Shown piece by piece: positions 11,271 through 55,097 of a stretch of DNA of 61,517 nucleotides (its first letter is position 1; every line of letters starts with the position of its first letter). A program made the translations under genes and the position numbers. The notes below the pieces were generated by a model, which searched no databases, was not told the origin of the DNA, and saw only the letters and a program-made list of their open reading frames with translations. The stretch is taken from contig NZ_JAGGQL010000041.1 in the NCBI RefSeq assembly GCF_018613315.1, positions 1-61,517 on the forward strand, written 5' to 3'. Source of the DNA: Bacillus sp. ISL-37 (GTDB taxonomy: Bacteria; Bacillota; Bacilli; Bacillales; Cytobacillaceae).

Positions 11271-11517
11271 CACTTTAGAGCATTAAAGTGAAGATAGAGG
11301 TGCGAACTTCAAGAGTAAAAGTCAGGAGAATTGTAGGATTCGAGGATGGACTTTGAAAGGGGATGTTCGCCGAAGTGGGGAAATGCCTATCGATTTTCTC
11401 GCTGGTCCTTCGTTGAATAAACGCTGGATTGTCAAGATTGCCATCTTGGAGTGCTATCTCATGTTGCAGCGTATATACACGTTAATCAAGCAATGGGAGC
11501 CACTTCCATTGCTTTTT
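11271..11517 (+). promoter_or_regulatory. Lysine riboswitch (L box) with terminator
   Basis: The conserved lysine-aptamer blocks appear in order: AGATAGAGGTGCGA (11292), AAGAGTA, GGAGAA, a GATGTTCGCCGAAG block and GTCAAG. The closing GGAGTGCTATCT ends near 11459, so P1 pairs AGATAG 11292-11297 with CTATCT 11454-11459. A factor-independent terminator follows at 11488-11517 (AAGCAATGG / CCATTGCTT then T), ahead of the lysC ribosome site. High lysine is expected to favour termination. A small extra hairpin CACTTTA/TAAAGTG lies at 11271-11290. Confidence 0.95.
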
Positions 11518-17655: not shown

Positions 17656-17828
17656 AAAAGCGAAAGCGCCTTGTCCAGCCCCGAAAAGCGCTGCCCGACT
17701 AGAACGCCACGTCCTGTGGCTGTCGGGTCTGCACTTCCTGTGCCTTAGAGCGCCGTCCGGTGAAGTCGTTCTTTGACTTCATTGGGCGGACCAAAGCGAC
17801 TCGAGGGGCTAGGCGCTGGAGCTGGACA
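17656..17828 (+). repeat. Dispersed structured repeat, copy B
   Basis: This copy starts at the base after the sdhB stop codon. It shares with copy E the stem CCCGAC 17694-17699 / GTCGGG 17722-17727 enclosing GCCAC 17706-17710 / GTGGC 17716-17720. It also has a GAAGTC/GACTTC hairpin and an outer AGCCCC...GGGGCT pairing. It lacks the AT-rich flank of copies A, C and D. With the sdh transcript reading through, it would form a structured 3' end. Confidence 0.9.
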
Positions 17829-28516: not shown

Positions 28517-28564
28517 CAAGGCTCTTATATTGTCACTTTCAATACCAAAATTGAATAAGGTAAA

Positions 28565-28856
28565 AGCGAGGACAGGGACAAGTAATTTAATGCGATCAGC
28601 ATGCACAGAGAGCCGGGGTTGCTGGAAACCGGTGATGCCGCATAAAATGAACTCACCCTGGAGCGCCAGTTTGAAAGGATCCTAGTAATACTGGTCGAGT
28701 GCACGGCACTTGTTATCAAAACCGGCAGCAGAAGCTGTCACGAGTGCACGCATCAAGCGTGAATAAGGGTGGTACCGTGGAAAAGGAGATAAAGCCTATT
28801 CCATCCCTTTGCCTGGGCAACCTTAGGCATATGGAGATGGATGGGCTTTTTTATTT
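28565..28856 (+). promoter_or_regulatory. Leucine T-box riboswitch
   Basis: A T-box leader with Stem I beginning near GGACAGGGACAAGTA, the AGAGAG...GGGGTTGCTGG-AAACC block, and a specifier-loop GAACTCACC holding CTC (28652-28654), a leucine codon. The conserved T-box AGGGTGGTACCG lies at 28766-28777. The terminator pairs AAAGCC...CCATCC with GGATGGGCTTT, ending in T6 near 28852. Uncharged tRNA-Leu should stabilise the antiterminator and switch on ilvB and downstream genes. Confidence 0.95.
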
Positions 28857-48230: not shown

Positions 48231-48473
48231 TCATTCTTTAATTAGAATAACCTGGCTTGATCCGCAATTTGTACATTTAAACATATGCGGGCATTCCCCT
48301 TCGGCGAAATCAGTTGGATACCCATCTTCTAGCTTCATTTGATCGATTGGCATATATGGACTGTAATCATCGTAAAAGTCTGCTTCTCGCCCAATGTTCT
48401 CCATGCTGCCGCTGCAGTTTGGACACGACGGAGTGATCGACTTGAAGCCGTTGCAAATCGGGCACATCCCCAT
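48231..48473 (-). CDS. Small zinc-ribbon protein
   Basis: An 80-residue protein with Cys pairs spaced like zinc ligands: CPIC and CPNC near the N terminus, then CPHMFKCTNC near the C terminus. The middle is acidic and Tyr-rich. It probably binds one or two zinc ions; no function is known to me. I chose ATG 48473, eight bases after AAAGGA, over the TTG nine bases upstream. It is divergent from the SASP gene and may be a sporulation gene by location only. Confidence 0.72.
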   Translation of the reverse strand: MGMCPICNGFKSITPSCPNCSGSMENIGREADFYDDYSPYMPIDQMKLEDGYPTDFAEGECPHMFKCTNCGSSQVILIKE

Positions 48474-48575
48474 TCTCTTCAATCCTTTCTGCTTTACTGA
48501 TATCGATAGTTTGCGTTGATTAAAATTGGTTATGTAAGATGATTATTTTGGAAGTAATTACCTAAATCACTCGGC

Positions 48576-48604
48576 GCATAAACTTCTCAAAACAAAACAT
48601 ACTA
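48576..48604 (+). promoter_or_regulatory. Probable sigma-G promoter of SASP gene
   Basis: GCATA (48576-48580) fits the sigma-G -35 GHATR, and CATACTA (48598-48604) fits the -10 CATWHTA exactly, with a 17-bp spacer. Transcription would begin near 48611, giving a ~220-nt leader that contains the structured element at 48662-48794. Confidence 0.75.
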
Positions 48605-48661
48605 GTTATTAATAAAGCAGCAACAGAAAACAACGCAGCAACAACAAGCGCAACAAAATCA

Positions 48662-48794
48662 TTGGGTTAAGCCTTAGAAGGCAGCTATACGCGCGCCGGT
48701 GCAATTCCGGCTAGCCCAGCCAAATTTCTTATAGCGGGTTAAACCAGGCGGCATGGCAAAAGCCATGATTGGTTCAAGTCCAATACTAACCCAA
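48662..48794 (+). ncRNA. Structured tRNA-like leader element of the SASP gene
   Basis: The outer stem TTGGGTTA (48662-48669) / TAACCCAA (48787-48794) encloses several stem-loops. These are GCCT/AGGC (48671-48682), GCTATA 48684-48689 / TATAGC 48730-48735 holding the hairpin GCCGG-TGCAATT-CCGGC (48695-48711), CATGGC/GCCATG around AAAA (48752-48767), and ATTGG-TTCAAGT-CCAAT (48768-48784) with a canonical T-loop. A competing fold pairs TGGGTTA 48663-48669 with TAGCCCA 48712-48718, directly after the T-arm-like hairpin and followed by G-CCA, which copies tRNA acceptor geometry. A full cloverleaf is absent. Function unknown. Confidence 0.65.
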
Positions 48795-48829
48795 ATACAA
48801 CTATGAAAAACACAAAGGAGGAAATATTA

Positions 48830-49033
48830 ATGGCTAGCAGTAACAACTCTAATCAATTATTAGTTCCTGGTGTTCAACAAGCTCTTGATCAAATGAAGTA
48901 CGAAATCGCTACAGAATTTGGCGTACAACTTGGTGGAGAAACTACTTCTCGTGCTAACGGATCTGTTGGTGGAGAAATCACTAAGCGCCTAGTTCAAATG
49001 GCTGAGCAACAACTTGGCGGTTCTGCACGCTAG
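48830..49033 (+). CDS. Alpha/beta-type small acid-soluble spore protein
   Basis: A 67-residue SASP that coats and protects spore DNA and is degraded at germination. The germination-protease site is visible as TEFGV ([11 protein letters not shown]), and the C-terminal [15 protein letters not shown] helix is diagnostic. The start is ATG 48830, seven bases after AAGGAGGA; an upstream in-frame ATG at 48803 is inside the leader. It is preceded by a sigma-G promoter match and a structured leader, and followed by a strong terminator. Confidence 0.95.
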
Positions 49034-49191: not shown

Positions 49192-50574
49192 TTAAATCAT
49201 CTTTTCAGGCTTAACCCACTCGTCATATTGCTCTGATGTTAAATAGCCTGTTTTAATCGCTGCTTCTTTCAAGGTTGTATTTTCTTTGAAAGCGAGCTTG
49301 GCGATTTCTGCTGCTTTTTCATAGCCAATATGTGGATTCAAAGCTGTTACAAGCATTAATGACCGCTCAACATGGCCACCAATTACATCCAAATTCGCCT
49401 CAATACCTTCTACACAGTTATCATTGAATGATCTCATTCCATCCGCCAACAGCCTTGCACTCTGCAAGAAGTTATAAATGATAACTGGTTTAAAAACATT
49501 CAGTTCAAAATTTCCCTGGCTGGCTGCAAAACCGATGGTTGCATCATTTCCAAACACCTGTGTCGCTACCATCGTCAGTGCTTCGCTCTGGGTTGGATTA
49601 ACCTTACCAGGCATGATGGAGCTGCCAGGCTCATTTGCCGGTATCGATAGTTCTCCAATCCCGCTTCTTGGACCGCTGGCCAGCCAGCGAACATCATTGG
49701 CAATTTTCATCAAGTCTGCTGCGAGTCCTTTTAATGCTCCATGAAGGAACACGATTTCATCATGTGAGGTCAGTGCATGGAATTTGTTTGGAGCGGAATG
49801 GAATGTCTCCCCCGTTTGTTCAACAAGCTGTTTCGCAACCTTGTCACCAAAATCCTTCGCGGCATTTATGCCTGTACCTACAGCAGTCCCGCCAATCGCT
49901 AAATCTCGTACGTATTTCAATCCATCCTTAATCATCTGTTCATTTTTTTCAAGCATGGCTCTCCAGCCACTGATTTCCTGCCCCAATGTCAATGGAGTCG
50001 CATCCTGGAGATGTGTCCTGCCAATTTTGATGATGTCATTGAATTCTTGTTCCTTTTTCTTCAATGTTTCTTTAAAAAGTTCAAGCGCAGGCAATACTTC
50101 ACCTGTCACTTTTTTGACAGCAGCAATATGCATCGCTGTCGGGAATGTATCGTTCGAGCTCTGTGACATATTCACATCATCATTTGGGTGGACCTTTTCA
50201 TCAGACCCCTGATTTTTGAGCAGCTCACTCGCCCTTCTTGCGACCACTTCATTCACGTTCATGTTGGATTGAGTTCCGCTTCCCGTCTGCCATACAACTA
50301 ACGGAAAATGTGTATCAAAATGCCCGGATAGAATTTCATCGCAGGCTGCCTCAATCGCCTTCGCTTTTGCATCTGACAACTTTCCAGAGGCGGCATTCAC
50401 ACTAGCTGCAGCTTTCTTTACTTCTGCAAATGCATAAATCACATCAATTGGCATTCTTTCTGTGCCTATCTTGAAATTCTGTTTGCTCCGCTGTGTTTGC
50501 GCACCCCAGTACTTCTCTGATGGCACTTTGATTTCGCCTATTGTATCTCTTTCAATCCGATAATCTGACAACAC
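49192..50574 (-). CDS. fumC: Fumarate hydratase, class II
   Basis: A 460-residue enzyme (citG in B. subtilis) interconverting fumarate and malate in the TCA cycle. The superfamily signature [16 protein letters not shown] is present. The substrate-site elements [25 protein letters not shown] and [10 protein letters not shown] are intact, and the length is standard. It uses a non-ATG start (GTG 50574 or TTG 50571) behind GAGGAGGG. No terminator is obvious just after its stop codon. Confidence 0.96.
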
Positions 50575-51023: not shown

Positions 51024-53027
51024 TTAACCTGCCTTAATTTTGTTGCCCAGCTGCAGCTGGTACATTTGAAAATATTTACCTTTAAGCTCCATTAGTTGAT
51101 CATGGTTACCTTTCTCAACAATCCGACCGCGGTCCAGTACAAGGATCTGGTCAGCATTGCGTATGGTCGACAATCTGTGGGCAATGATGAAAGTCGTCCT
51201 GCCCTCCTTAAGGACATCCATTGCTTCCTGGATAATCGCTTCTGTCTCGGTATCAATGCTCGATGTCGCTTCATCAAGAATCAGGATGGCCGGATCGAAG
51301 GCCAAGGCTCTGGCAAAAGAAACCAGCTGTCGCTGCCCGCTTGATAGCGTACTGCCTTTTTCAATCACCGGCTCATCATACCCTTTTTCAAGATTTTTCA
51401 GGACGGTGTCTGCCCCAACGCTGGCCAGCGCTTTCTCAACGCTTTCCCTGGTGATGTCAGGGTGATCGAGGCTGACGTTGGAGGCTATTGTGCCGGTAAA
51501 AAGGAACGGATCCTGCAGGACAATCCCCATATGCTTCCGCAACGTCTGTCTCGGCATTTCGGTAATATCCATCCCGTCAATCAGAATTTTACCTTCCTGC
51601 GGATCATAGAACCTGAACAGCAGGTTCATAATCGAACTTTTGCCTGATCCCGTATGGCCTACGAGTGCAACTGTTTCACCCTGTTTTGCTTCAAAGCAAA
51701 GATCCTTAAGCACATATTCACCTTTTTTATAGCCGAAGGATACATGGTCGAAAAGGACATTTCCTTTGTAGCGGGGAATCTCCTTCTCGCTTACGTCGAT
51801 TCCTTCCTCATCCATAAGATTGAACACCCGCTCTCCGGCAACAAGAGCCTGCTCAAGGTTAGCCAGCTGGTTGACGATTCCCTGGACAGGATTGAACAGA
51901 CGGTTAATATAATCGACGAACGCGTAAAGCATACCGAGTGAAATGGCAGAAGATGGCTGAAGTGCCTCACCGCCAAAATACCAGATGAACGCCACGAAGA
52001 CGATATTTCTTAAAACTCCCACAAGGTTATGGGAGGTTGAGGAATTCAAACTCAACAATTTATTTTGAAAAGTGAAATGCTCCTTGTTCAACGTCTCGAA
52101 TTCCTGTTGTGTTTCTTTTTCCCGGCTGAAGGCCTGGATGATGCTCATGCCCTGGATCGATTCATTGATCATGCCATTAATATCACTAACGCGGGAGCGG
52201 ATGACATGGTTGTATTTTGATGCGTACTTCCGGTAAAGCTTCGCCCAGACAAACAGGATTGGCAACAGCAGTAAACAAATCGCTGCAAGGTTCGCATTCA
52301 GGATGAACAAGGCAATATAGATGCCGGTAATATAAATGAAACTTGTAAAGAAAGTTGAAAGGACCGTAACGTACAATTCACGGATCGCCTCTGTATCATT
52401 CGTGATCCTCGCAACGACCTTCCCTGCAGGAAGATTGTCAAAATACTGGATCGGCAGTCTCTGAATCTGTCTGAAGACATCCTCCCGGAGCTTCTGGATA
52501 ATCCGGTTCGCTGACTTTTGCAAATAAAATCTTTGGCCATATTGGAAGATGGACGCAATGATCAGTAAGCCGAAATAAAACGAAAGAAGCTTAATAATAT
52601 TCGGGATTTCTGGTTTATAAAAATTCATCAAATCATCGCCGGATAGAACTTCTGCTTCATATTGCGCAGCCTTTGACCCTTTGCTTATTGTTAATAACCC
52701 ATCCTCATAGCTGCGGCTTCCATCGAATTCGACATCAGCATCCACAAATACAAAATTCCTTCCAACCTGTAAAATCCGGGTAGAATCTGCGTTCGCAGCT
52801 TCGCCATTCTTTGTGTAATAACTGCCATTATATTCAACTGCACCATCGCCAGCTTCTGTCTTGTGCCAGACTGACTCAATTCCTAAAATGTGGTTATCAA
52901 TCATCCGCTTGGCGATGAATGGTCCTGCCAGGTCTGCAACAACAGCGACCGTCAGCATCGCCAGGGCAATAAGGATTATTTTCTTATAATTTAACGCATA
53001 TCTAAACAGTCTTTTTCCTGTACTCAT
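51024..53027 (-). CDS. yheH: Heterodimeric ABC multidrug exporter subunit YheH (BmrD-like)
   Basis: A 667-residue half-transporter: six membrane helices (about 15-400), with an extracellular insert between helices 1 and 2, then an ATPase domain. Walker A is GHTGSGKSS, the signature LSSGQRQLVSFARAL and Walker B ILILDEATSSID with the catalytic Glu intact. This matches BmrD, the catalytically competent partner of BmrC. ATG 53027 follows AGAGGAGGTG and overlaps the stop of yheI by four bases. Confidence 0.93.
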   Translation of the reverse strand: MSTGKRLFRYALNYKKIILIALAMLTVAVVADLAGPFIAKRMIDNHILGIESVWHKTEAGDGAVEYNGSYYTKNGEAANADSTRILQVGRNFVFVDADVEFDGSRSYEDGLLTISKGSKAAQYEAEVLSGDDLMNFYKPEIPNIIKLLSFYFGLLIIASIFQYGQRFYLQKSANRIIQKLREDVFRQIQRLPIQYFDNLPAGKVVARITNDTEAIRELYVTVLSTFFTSFIYITGIYIALFILNANLAAICLLLLPILFVWAKLYRKYASKYNHVIRSRVSDINGMINESIQGMSIIQAFSREKETQQEFETLNKEHFTFQNKLLSLNSSTSHNLVGVLRNIVFVAFIWYFGGEALQPSSAISLGMLYAFVDYINRLFNPVQGIVNQLANLEQALVAGERVFNLMDEEGIDVSEKEIPRYKGNVLFDHVSFGYKKGEYVLKDLCFEAKQGETVALVGHTGSGKSSIMNLLFRFYDPQEGKILIDGMDITEMPRQTLRKHMGIVLQDPFLFTGTIASNVSLDHPDITRESVEKALASVGADTVLKNLEKGYDEPVIEKGSTLSSGQRQLVSFARALAFDPAILILDEATSSIDTETEAIIQEAMDVLKEGRTTFIIAHRLSTIRNADQILVLDRGRIVEKGNHDQLMELKGKYFQMYQLQLGNKIKAG

Positions 53028-54781
53028 ACGGAGTGCACCTCCTCTTCGACTGCTGCAGCCTGCTGCTTGATATATTGCTCGTAATACCAACCTTGAGCAG
53101 CCATCAATTGTTCGTGCGTGCCTTCCTCAATTATTTTTCCATCTTCAAGTACGACGATATGATCAGCATGCTCAACCGCAGACATTCTGTGAGTTGTTAT
53201 GATGGTTGTTTTCGCATTCCGCTCTCTGCGGATGTTATCAATGATTTTTTTCTCTGTTTTTGCATCGACTGCTGAAAGCGAATCATCGAGAATAAGGATT
53301 TCCGGATCCTTGATCAAAGCACGTGCAATCGAAATACGCTGCTTCTGGCCGCCAGACAGTGCGACCCCTTTTTCACCGACAAGTGTCTCCAGACCTTCCG
53401 GCAGCATTTCCAGGTCTTTGCGAAAAGCAGCCAAATCGATGATATCCTGCAAATCTTTTTCTGAAGCCATCGGGTTTCCGAACAGAATATTTTCCTTAAC
53501 CGAACGGGAGAAAAGGATGTTTTCCTGCGGAACATACCCCATCCAGCCCCGAGTCTGCCTCAGGCTGTGCTCCTGGATCGGCACTCCTGATACAAGGAGG
53601 TTCCCACTGCCTTCAGGATATTCCCTCAACAGCTGTTTGATTAGTGTTGTCTTGCCGCTCCCCGTCTTCCCGACGATTCCCAGCGTTTCACCACGGTTCA
53701 AATGCAGCTTGATATTATCTAGATTGTTCACATTGGATGAAGGATATTTGAATGTGAACTCGGACATCTGTAAATACTCCGGATCATTTCCCTCCACTGG
53801 TTTCGCTGGATCTGCAACATCCTCTTTGTATGATAATGTCTCATTTAGGCGGTCAAGAGACGCATTGCCTCGCTGCATGACATTGATCAGTTCACCAATT
53901 GCGAACATTGGCCAGATCAGCATTCCCAGGTATACATTGAAGCTGACCAGCTCTCCCAGCGTCAGCTTTTGCTGGAAAACAAGAAATGCTCCATATCCTA
54001 GACCAATCAGGTAGCTCATACCAACAAGGATCTTAATGGTTGGTTCAAACAAAGAATCGATTTTCGCAACTTCGACATTTTTACGGTAGACATCTTCAGT
54101 CAAGTCATGAAACCTTGATTCATCGGATTTCTCCTGTACATACGCACGGATGACCCGCACTCCTGATACGGATTCAAGCACCCTGTCATTCAGCTCGCCG
54201 AATGCATCCTGAGCAGAAGTGAATTTAGAATGAATCTTTTTGCCATATATGTTTACTAGAAATGCCATGATTGGCAGTGGGATGATCGAAACAAGTGTAA
54301 GCTCCCAGCTGATGAAAAATCCCATCGTGAACAAGATCGTCAGCATGAAAATGCTCGAATCGACAAGTGTCAGTACTCCGAAACCAGCCGTGATTGATAT
54401 TGCTTTTAAATCATTCGTCGCCCTTGCCATCAAGTCACCTGTACGATTCCTTTCAAAGAACGTCGGTGTCATCTTCAGCAAATGCTTCATGAAGCGGGTC
54501 CTGAGTTTCCGTTCAATCAGGAAGGCTCCGCCGAATAATTGATACATCCAAATGTAAGTGATGAAATAAGAGACCACCGTAATCAGCAAGAGGCCGCCAA
54601 TATACTTTAGAATTAAATTCTGGTTCATGGAACCAATCTGGATAGCATCGATTGCCATCCCGACGATTTTTGGCGGCAGTACATCAAGAATGCCGACAAA
54701 AATCAGTAATGAGATCGCCACACTGTATCTCTTCCAGTTTTCTTTAAAAAACCAGCTTAACTTTGATAAAACTGATAACAT
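53024..54781 (-). CDS. yheI: Heterodimeric ABC multidrug exporter subunit YheI (BmrC-like)
   Basis: A 585-residue half-transporter with six membrane helices and an ATPase domain. Walker A is GKTGSGKTT and the signature LSGGQKQRISIARAL. Walker B reads ILILDDSLSAVD, where Asp replaces the catalytic Glu: the degenerate-site feature known in BmrC. With YheH it forms an asymmetric drug exporter. The ribosome site AGAGAGGAGAG precedes ATG 54781. A short leader ORF lies 36 bases upstream. Confidence 0.93.
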   Translation of the reverse strand: MLSVLSKLSWFFKENWKRYSVAISLLIFVGILDVLPPKIVGMAIDAIQIGSMNQNLILKYIGGLLLITVVSYFITYIWMYQLFGGAFLIERKLRTRFMKHLLKMTPTFFERNRTGDLMARATNDLKAISITAGFGVLTLVDSSIFMLTILFTMGFFISWELTLVSIIPLPIMAFLVNIYGKKIHSKFTSAQDAFGELNDRVLESVSGVRVIRAYVQEKSDESRFHDLTEDVYRKNVEVAKIDSLFEPTIKILVGMSYLIGLGYGAFLVFQQKLTLGELVSFNVYLGMLIWPMFAIGELINVMQRGNASLDRLNETLSYKEDVADPAKPVEGNDPEYLQMSEFTFKYPSSNVNNLDNIKLHLNRGETLGIVGKTGSGKTTLIKQLLREYPEGSGNLLVSGVPIQEHSLRQTRGWMGYVPQENILFSRSVKENILFGNPMASEKDLQDIIDLAAFRKDLEMLPEGLETLVGEKGVALSGGQKQRISIARALIKDPEILILDDSLSAVDAKTEKKIIDNIRRERNAKTTIITTHRMSAVEHADHIVVLEDGKIIEEGTHEQLMAAQGWYYEQYIKQQAAAVEEEVHSV

Positions 54782-54923: not shown

Positions 54924-55097
54924 AAAAAGCGCAAGCGCCTCGTTCAGCCCCGACAAGCGCTGCCCGACTAGAACGCCACGTCCTGTGGCTGTCGGGTCTG
55001 CACTTCCTGTGCCTTAGAGCGCCGACCGGTGAAGTCGTTCTTTGACTTCACCTGAGCGAACTGAAGCGACTCGAGGGGCTAGGCGCTGGAGCTGGAT
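54924..55097 (+). repeat. Dispersed structured repeat, copy E
   Basis: Nearly identical to copy B over its length, including the arm CCCGAC 54963-54968 / GTCGGG 54991-54996 and the GAAGTC/GACTTC hairpin. It lacks the AT-rich flank. It lies between the yheI leader ORF and its upstream region, so exporter transcripts may start within or after it. Confidence 0.92.

Follow-up and report, generated by a model that had tools for sequence, protein, structure and literature searches.

A conserved tRNA-like leader precedes the sspB-orthologous spore protein gene of Bacillus sp. ISL-37 and its relatives

The gene considered here lies in a 61,517-nucleotide stretch of Bacillus sp. ISL-37 DNA (contig NZ_JAGGQL010000041.1, from a genome of 4.74 Mb; the whole stretch is referred to below as the window) and encodes what we take to be an alpha/beta-type small acid-soluble spore protein (SASP). 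It is the ortholog by synteny of the Bacillus subtilis group gene that we assume to be sspB, a classic sporulation gene. A conserved tRNA-like leader precedes it, built from two tandem units, T1 and T2 (Table 1), and SASP-linked elements of this kind are present in at least 21 of the 47 families of the order. An initial annotation, made from the sequence alone, had recognised two tandem tRNA-like halves, each with a T-arm and an acceptor strand and the first ending in G-CCA as tRNAs do, downstream of a match to a sigma-G promoter. These features are all evident in the DNA, with about 220 nt separating the putative promoter, and hence the presumed transcript start, from the SASP start codon, and the folding energy of the leader is below that of shuffled sequences (z scores of −2.81 and −3.14). 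The comparison with orthologous SASP genes that the annotation put forward as a check shows stems that are kept and that covary across the order; the switch between alternative pairings that it also envisaged is the part that is not supported.

Covariation and conserved anatomy

The leader with both units can be aligned in 20 of 21 genomes of the same genus, and there is little covariation among these because T1 and T2 are nearly invariant. The leader was not matched in the twenty-first genome (G012), whose best match to the neighbouring fumarase is just 41% identical, so that the whole stretch may be absent there. The alignment behind a covariance model of T2 (model R1; 21 sequences, 17 pairs) has six pairs that have changed on both sides, and none of 500 shuffles scored as high. 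For T1 and single units, covariation exceeds the shuffles on three of five measures, and two fall within them (both-side-changed pairs, 54 of 500; pair types, 475 of 500). An order-wide alignment of 12 pairs (92 matches from 92 chosen loci, giving 84 distinct rows, fitted to the model) has 98.1% of its cells paired and lies above the shuffles on all five measures, with both-side changes at nine pairs and in 65 cells as compared with 9.6 (standard deviation 2.6) in shuffles and no more than 16 in slid controls. Examples of compensated acceptor changes are UGGACCA/UGGUCCA, UGGAUGA/UCAUCCA and AGGGUUA/UAACCCU.

Conserved anatomy was counted in 202 units at 171 loci, 140 of them with a UGC T-loop and 62 with a UUC T-loop; copies identical in both element and protein were counted once, and three units (two with weak T-stems and one evident false match) were dropped beforehand. 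The geometry is that of tRNA, with a 7-bp acceptor stacked on a 5-bp T-stem. The two stems are joined without a spacer in 183 of the 202 units, and all seven acceptor pairs form in 173. CCA is present in 138 of the 140 UGC-loop units, and the 1-72 pair is U-A in 135 of these and G-C in 46 of the 62 UUC-loop units. T-loop positions U54, R57 and A58 are invariant in all 127 distinct units of a set for which GG/CC closing, RCCA and seven acceptor pairs were demanded and the loop was left free. When 174 leaders, preselected for carrying a unit, were dinucleotide-shuffled, a strict unit finder gave a match in one of the 3480 shuffled sequences.

The part between acceptor and T-stem is 15-60 nt long and has no loop that is conserved by eye. 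Anticodon arms differ from unit to unit in both length and sequence and are dispensable, units of 52 nt (e.g. L067, L069) being too short to contain one. The T1 units of L064, L073, L161 and L174 have a longer middle, apparently with an extra hairpin after the 5′ strand of the acceptor, and units of L158 and L162 have a long repeat-like insertion between D-arm and T-arm. The 3′ end of the element is a median of 32 nt from the start codon (range 15-193, 174 loci), and the long distances are probably from loci where a nearer unit was missed; the distance is 13-36 nt in the first round of opened matches and 26-38 nt in the third (see below). A loosely defined −10 pattern, which may match by chance, is found upstream in 158 of 166 loci, a median of 43 nt before the first unit.

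Distribution and genomic context

Searches were made with R1 and with a model of the acceptor and T-stem only (R2), which revealed the element over a much wider range, and they may miss strongly diverged relatives. R1 matches in 116 of 193 family genomes, the R2 tally is 341 of 397, and 15 of 299 genomes match at E≤1e-4, but these are not counts of the element, since genuine tRNA-Gln genes, 74-75 nt long and scoring no more than about 41 bits, are matched by both models as well. Matches were therefore read in their context, and among 120 opened over three rounds, which overlap in a few genomes, 115 lie before a SASP gene, four are tRNA-Gln genes and one is a cut record. Of 40 R1 matches from outside the genus, 37 are before an alpha/beta SASP start and three read as tRNA-Gln. 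Scanning named genomes for an exact pattern yielded 84 stretches; 40 were opened, as 41 rows with one repeat, and 39 of these are before a SASP gene, with one stretch ending just past the start codon. The third round, 40 R2 matches picked mainly for lengths unlike tRNA and spread over families, contains 39 before a SASP gene and one tRNA-Gln array. In five named genomes searched whole with R2 there is one element each, and all other matches are of 75 nt. Outside the order, R2 at E≤1e-4 matches four genomes, each over 75 nt at 39.9-41.1 bits, and we read these as probable tRNA genes.

Among the carriers that have a species name are Bacillus spizizenii, B. inaquosorum, B. halotolerans and B. mojavensis; their SASP is presumably SspB. 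Other genera have a single unit that is nearer to T1, with the loop UGCAANU and RCCA; the tandem form outside the window genus is seen in part of Neobacillus (g49) and at one locus of g43 (L072). All of these appear to be one orthologous locus, in that each of 82 loci of at least 6 kb has at least one neighbour among the zinc-ribbon, MsmK-like, FumC and YheG/YheH genes, as read by eye and with some ABC matches below 35% identity left uncounted. One example is B. spizizenii, in which sspB is followed by genes that resemble, and that we take to be, yheG and yheH; the window has a yheH-like gene too. Eleven SASP leaders were missed by the unit finder, and six of these show the element by eye, the remaining five belonging to other SASP copies (see below). 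A match at another SASP copy (L026) was judged false. In three public records, titled Chryseobacterium (L183), Sporosarcina globispora (L150) and Paenibacillus (L202), both the leader and the neighbouring genes are of the kind seen in Mesobacillus or Cytobacillus, and the records are probably misnamed.

Relationship to tRNA-Gln and to described RNA families

We compared the acceptor and T-arm of each unit with the 48 distinct tRNA sequences of the window genome, used as a proxy for all species. The nearest tRNA is tRNA-Gln for 129 of 137 UGC-type units without a spacer (127 strictly; ties in three), and for just 7 of 46 UUC-type units. The element shares with tRNA (RF00005), and with bacterial tRNA-Gln especially, the acceptor/T-stem geometry, the T-loop, a short D-like arm and RCCA; it differs in its position within an mRNA leader, in having G as base 55 in the main type, and in its unconserved or missing anticodon arm. 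ARAGORN finds no tRNA gene at T1 or T2 in the window, there is no match to RF00005 at 48663-48796 at the gathering score (29 bits), and neither unit is among the 72 matches to the tRNA family found genome-wide. Among 28 loci of relatives, only L233 reaches that score (29.1 bits). A tandem array of three tRNA-Gln-like genes with near-identical spacers is present in L253.

In 135 loci out of 154, a D-loop GG accompanies UUC T-loops and is absent where the loop is UGC, a pattern that may hint at a D-loop/T-loop elbow; a further 13 loci defied parsing. The T-loop changes about ten times on the tree, and three independent contrasts on supported branches give a median p of 0.5; the correlation is suggestive and not established. 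UGU T-loops occur in L114, L127 and L128, and L114 has AAAA in its D-loop, which would fit a change of the 19:56 pair from G-C to A-U, a hint from three loci only.

The initial annotation knew of no described family that fits, and Rfam 15 likewise yields none at its cut-offs. With the threshold relaxed to E≤10, the matches in the leader are all weak: tRNA-Sec (16.5 bits, E 0.95), permuted tmRNA (12.1 bits, E 1.6) and, on the opposite strand, FopS (E 1.2). Permuted tmRNA (RF04321) also has a T-arm, CCA and acceptor strands flanking a linker, and we rejected it on its score, the gathering score being 47. The T-box leader (RF00230) is a tRNA-related leader RNA of the same bacteria; it binds tRNA and does not resemble it, and no match to it was found in the SASP leader up to E 10. 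In the E. coli thrS operator, too, the leader of an mRNA acts on translation by tRNA mimicry; what is mimicked there is anticodon arms, and the present element conserves the acceptor, T-arm and CCA but no anticodon arm. Plant-virus tRNA-like structures also mimic tRNA outside tRNA genes and, as PMC11143913 describes, are RNase P substrates, although they are pseudoknot-built and at 3′ ends, and the element has an ordinary acceptor stem in a 5′ leader. tRNA mimicry in mRNA has precedents, and the present reading may still prove categorically new. No title in the literature searched concerns a tRNA-like SASP leader; older ssp papers may mention one.

Possible functions

The element may be recognised by tRNA-processing enzymes, which would thereby shape the message or protect it. 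The best mechanism we can offer, and we offer it tentatively, is that the element is of tRNA-Gln descent and serves as a handle for RNase P, whose action would leave the mRNA with a folded 5′ end. A leader element exapted from tRNA-Gln would have been retained across many families; RNase P would cut at the predicted site 5′ of the acceptor of the unit and leave a tRNA body as the 5′ end of a cellular mRNA, and in the forespore the mRNA of this one major SASP gene might thereby be distinct in processing, lifetime or translation. If so, such leaders could form a new class of cis-acting bacterial RNA, exapted from tRNA-Gln, in which the RNase P-made tRNA body at the 5′ end sets the SASP message apart; this too is put forward with some reserve. 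The RNase P determinants named in PMC11143913 are RCCA, the T stem-loop and a stack of 12 bp; the same paper describes the RCCA contact as essential inside B. subtilis and notes that tRNA-like structures and some mRNAs are cut by the enzyme. The determinants (12-bp acceptor/T stack, T-loop and RCCA) are all present in the UGC-type units. Strongly stabilising 5′ elements in Bacilli are described in PMC3997798, where they are explained through RNase J1. Plain sequestration of the Shine-Dalgarno is not expected, because it lies beyond the element.

Several observations weigh against RNase P processing. CCA is missing in 48 of the 62 UUC-loop (T2-type) units, including T2 of the window, and present in 14. 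The nucleotide at position −1 can pair with N73 in 32 of 108 CCA units with A73 (U-A) and in 19 of 44 with G73 (U-G), which is not ideal for the enzyme, and the tRNA-Gln signature is unnecessary for it. The spread is patchy, in that R2 at E≤1e-4 matches 11 genomes of the order and at least 16 are listed without a match, and the leaders of five other SASP paralogs (L023, L024, L025, L031 and a minus-strand gene in L248) lack the element by eye. In addition, one study does not place sspB mRNA among the abundant mRNAs of dormant spores.

Other explanations account for part of these data. The leader could stabilise the 5′ end or offer a ribosome-standby structure by its fold alone, uncut by tRNA enzymes, and the stable fold, together with an A-rich linker and a Shine-Dalgarno outside the units, agrees with this; we think it rather unlikely, however, as a fold alone has no need for the T-loop letters and RCCA that are kept across many families. 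Slightly harder to sustain is a translational operator, at which a protein of tRNA-Gln metabolism (e.g. GluRS or GatCAB) or some other tRNA-binding protein binds the mimic and tunes SASP translation to the glutamine or tRNA supply. GatCAB uses U1-A72 of tRNA-Gln, a feature found in the 135 UGC units noted above, tRNA-Gln is nearest to 129 of the 137 compared, and SASPs appear by eye to be Gln-rich. However, U1-A72 has become A1-U72 in three f17 units and is G-C in the 46 UUC-type units, neither the length nor the sequence of the anticodon arm is constant, and the Gln likeness may reflect ancestry only. Release of the unit as a stable tRNA-like small RNA acting in trans, with the SASP gene merely downstream, is conceivable through RNase P and tRNA 3′ processing (RNase Z suits 3′ ends without CCA, as in T2 units), and yet it is improbable given the closeness to one SASP gene in 115 of 120 opened matches and the single copy in each of the five genomes searched whole. 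Finally, the unit might be a passive relic, left by a tRNA-Gln gene that had inserted before sspB; this would explain the tRNA-Gln likeness and hardly deserves credence, since compensatory covariation across families points to selection.

The switch proposed in the initial annotation fares little better than the relic. Alternative pairings are indeed possible in the window, where a cross fold (T1 5′ with T2 3′ strand and T1 3′ with T2 5′ strand) is the predicted minimum free energy structure, at −48.3 versus −43.8 kcal/mol for the local folds in an energy model that disregards tertiary contacts. However, 140 of the 171 loci have a single unit, and mutually exclusive pairings of the riboswitch kind are not conserved across the 30 tandem loci. 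Both cross pairings keep 6-7 pairs in 22 of these; in seven others, in which the T1 acceptor starts UGGAUG, the T1 5′/T2 3′ strands keep only four of seven pairs, and the T1 3′/T2 5′ strands, at the best of five offsets, retain 5-6. In L072 it is the T1 3′/T2 5′ pairing that is down to four. The local stems keep 6-7 of 7 pairs in all 30, including the eight with a broken cross pairing. To us the cross pairing looks like a side effect of acceptor duplication, and we regard switching of the tandem units as very improbable.

The sspB leader seems to carry an undescribed and well conserved RNA. If the RNase P handle functions as proposed, a bacterium matures or protects an mRNA through tRNA mimicry, and B. 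subtilis would be a convenient organism in which to study how the forespore controls gene expression post-transcriptionally. The leader is also a concrete case on which to test a role of RNase P in shaping the mRNAs of Gram-positive bacteria.

Features of the locus

The positions of the promoter elements, the tRNA-like units and the genes around them are collected in Table 1.

Table 1. Features at the SASP locus, in window coordinates
Feature	Position	Strand	Description and basis
−35-like element GCATA, sigma-G-type promoter	48576..48580	+	sequence; read against what we take to be the sigma-G consensus
−10-like element CATACTA	48598..48604	+	sequence, same presumed consensus; spacing 17 nt from −35; present in 20/20 aligned same-genus leaders
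tRNA-like unit T1	48663..48722	+	7-bp acceptor (TGGGTTA 48663-48669 with TAGCCCA 48712-48718); D-like hairpin; T-arm 48695-48711, loop UGCAAUU; discriminator and CCA (GCCA 48719-48722)
tRNA-like unit T2	48736..48796	+	acceptor (GGGTTA 48736-48741 with TAACCC 48787-48792; 6 pairs, with a spacer between T-stem and acceptor); D-loop containing AGG; 6-bp hairpin; T-arm 48768-48784, loop UUCAAGU; AAAU at the 3′ end in place of CCA
Shine-Dalgarno AAAGGAGG	48814..48821	+	sequence; beyond both folded units
alpha/beta-type SASP gene	48830..49033	+	67 aa, ATG at 48830; sspB ortholog (B. subtilis group) by synteny, family and name as we take them to be
small cysteine-rich zinc-ribbon-like protein gene	48231..48482	-	upstream, conserved neighbourhood; neighbour comparison
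fumarase gene, presumably fumC-like	49192..50574	-	downstream neighbour at many loci; neighbour comparison
ABC transporter gene, presumably yheH-like	51024..53090	-	downstream; 60.8% identity; common to the B. spizizenii sspB region

Other structured RNAs are matched elsewhere in the window. Bacillaceae-1 RNA is matched barely above its gathering score at 17683-17744 and 54952-55013, and also at L085 139-200. A T-box leader is present at 28560-28811 (105.2 bits) and a Lysine riboswitch at 11287-11464 (126.9 bits).
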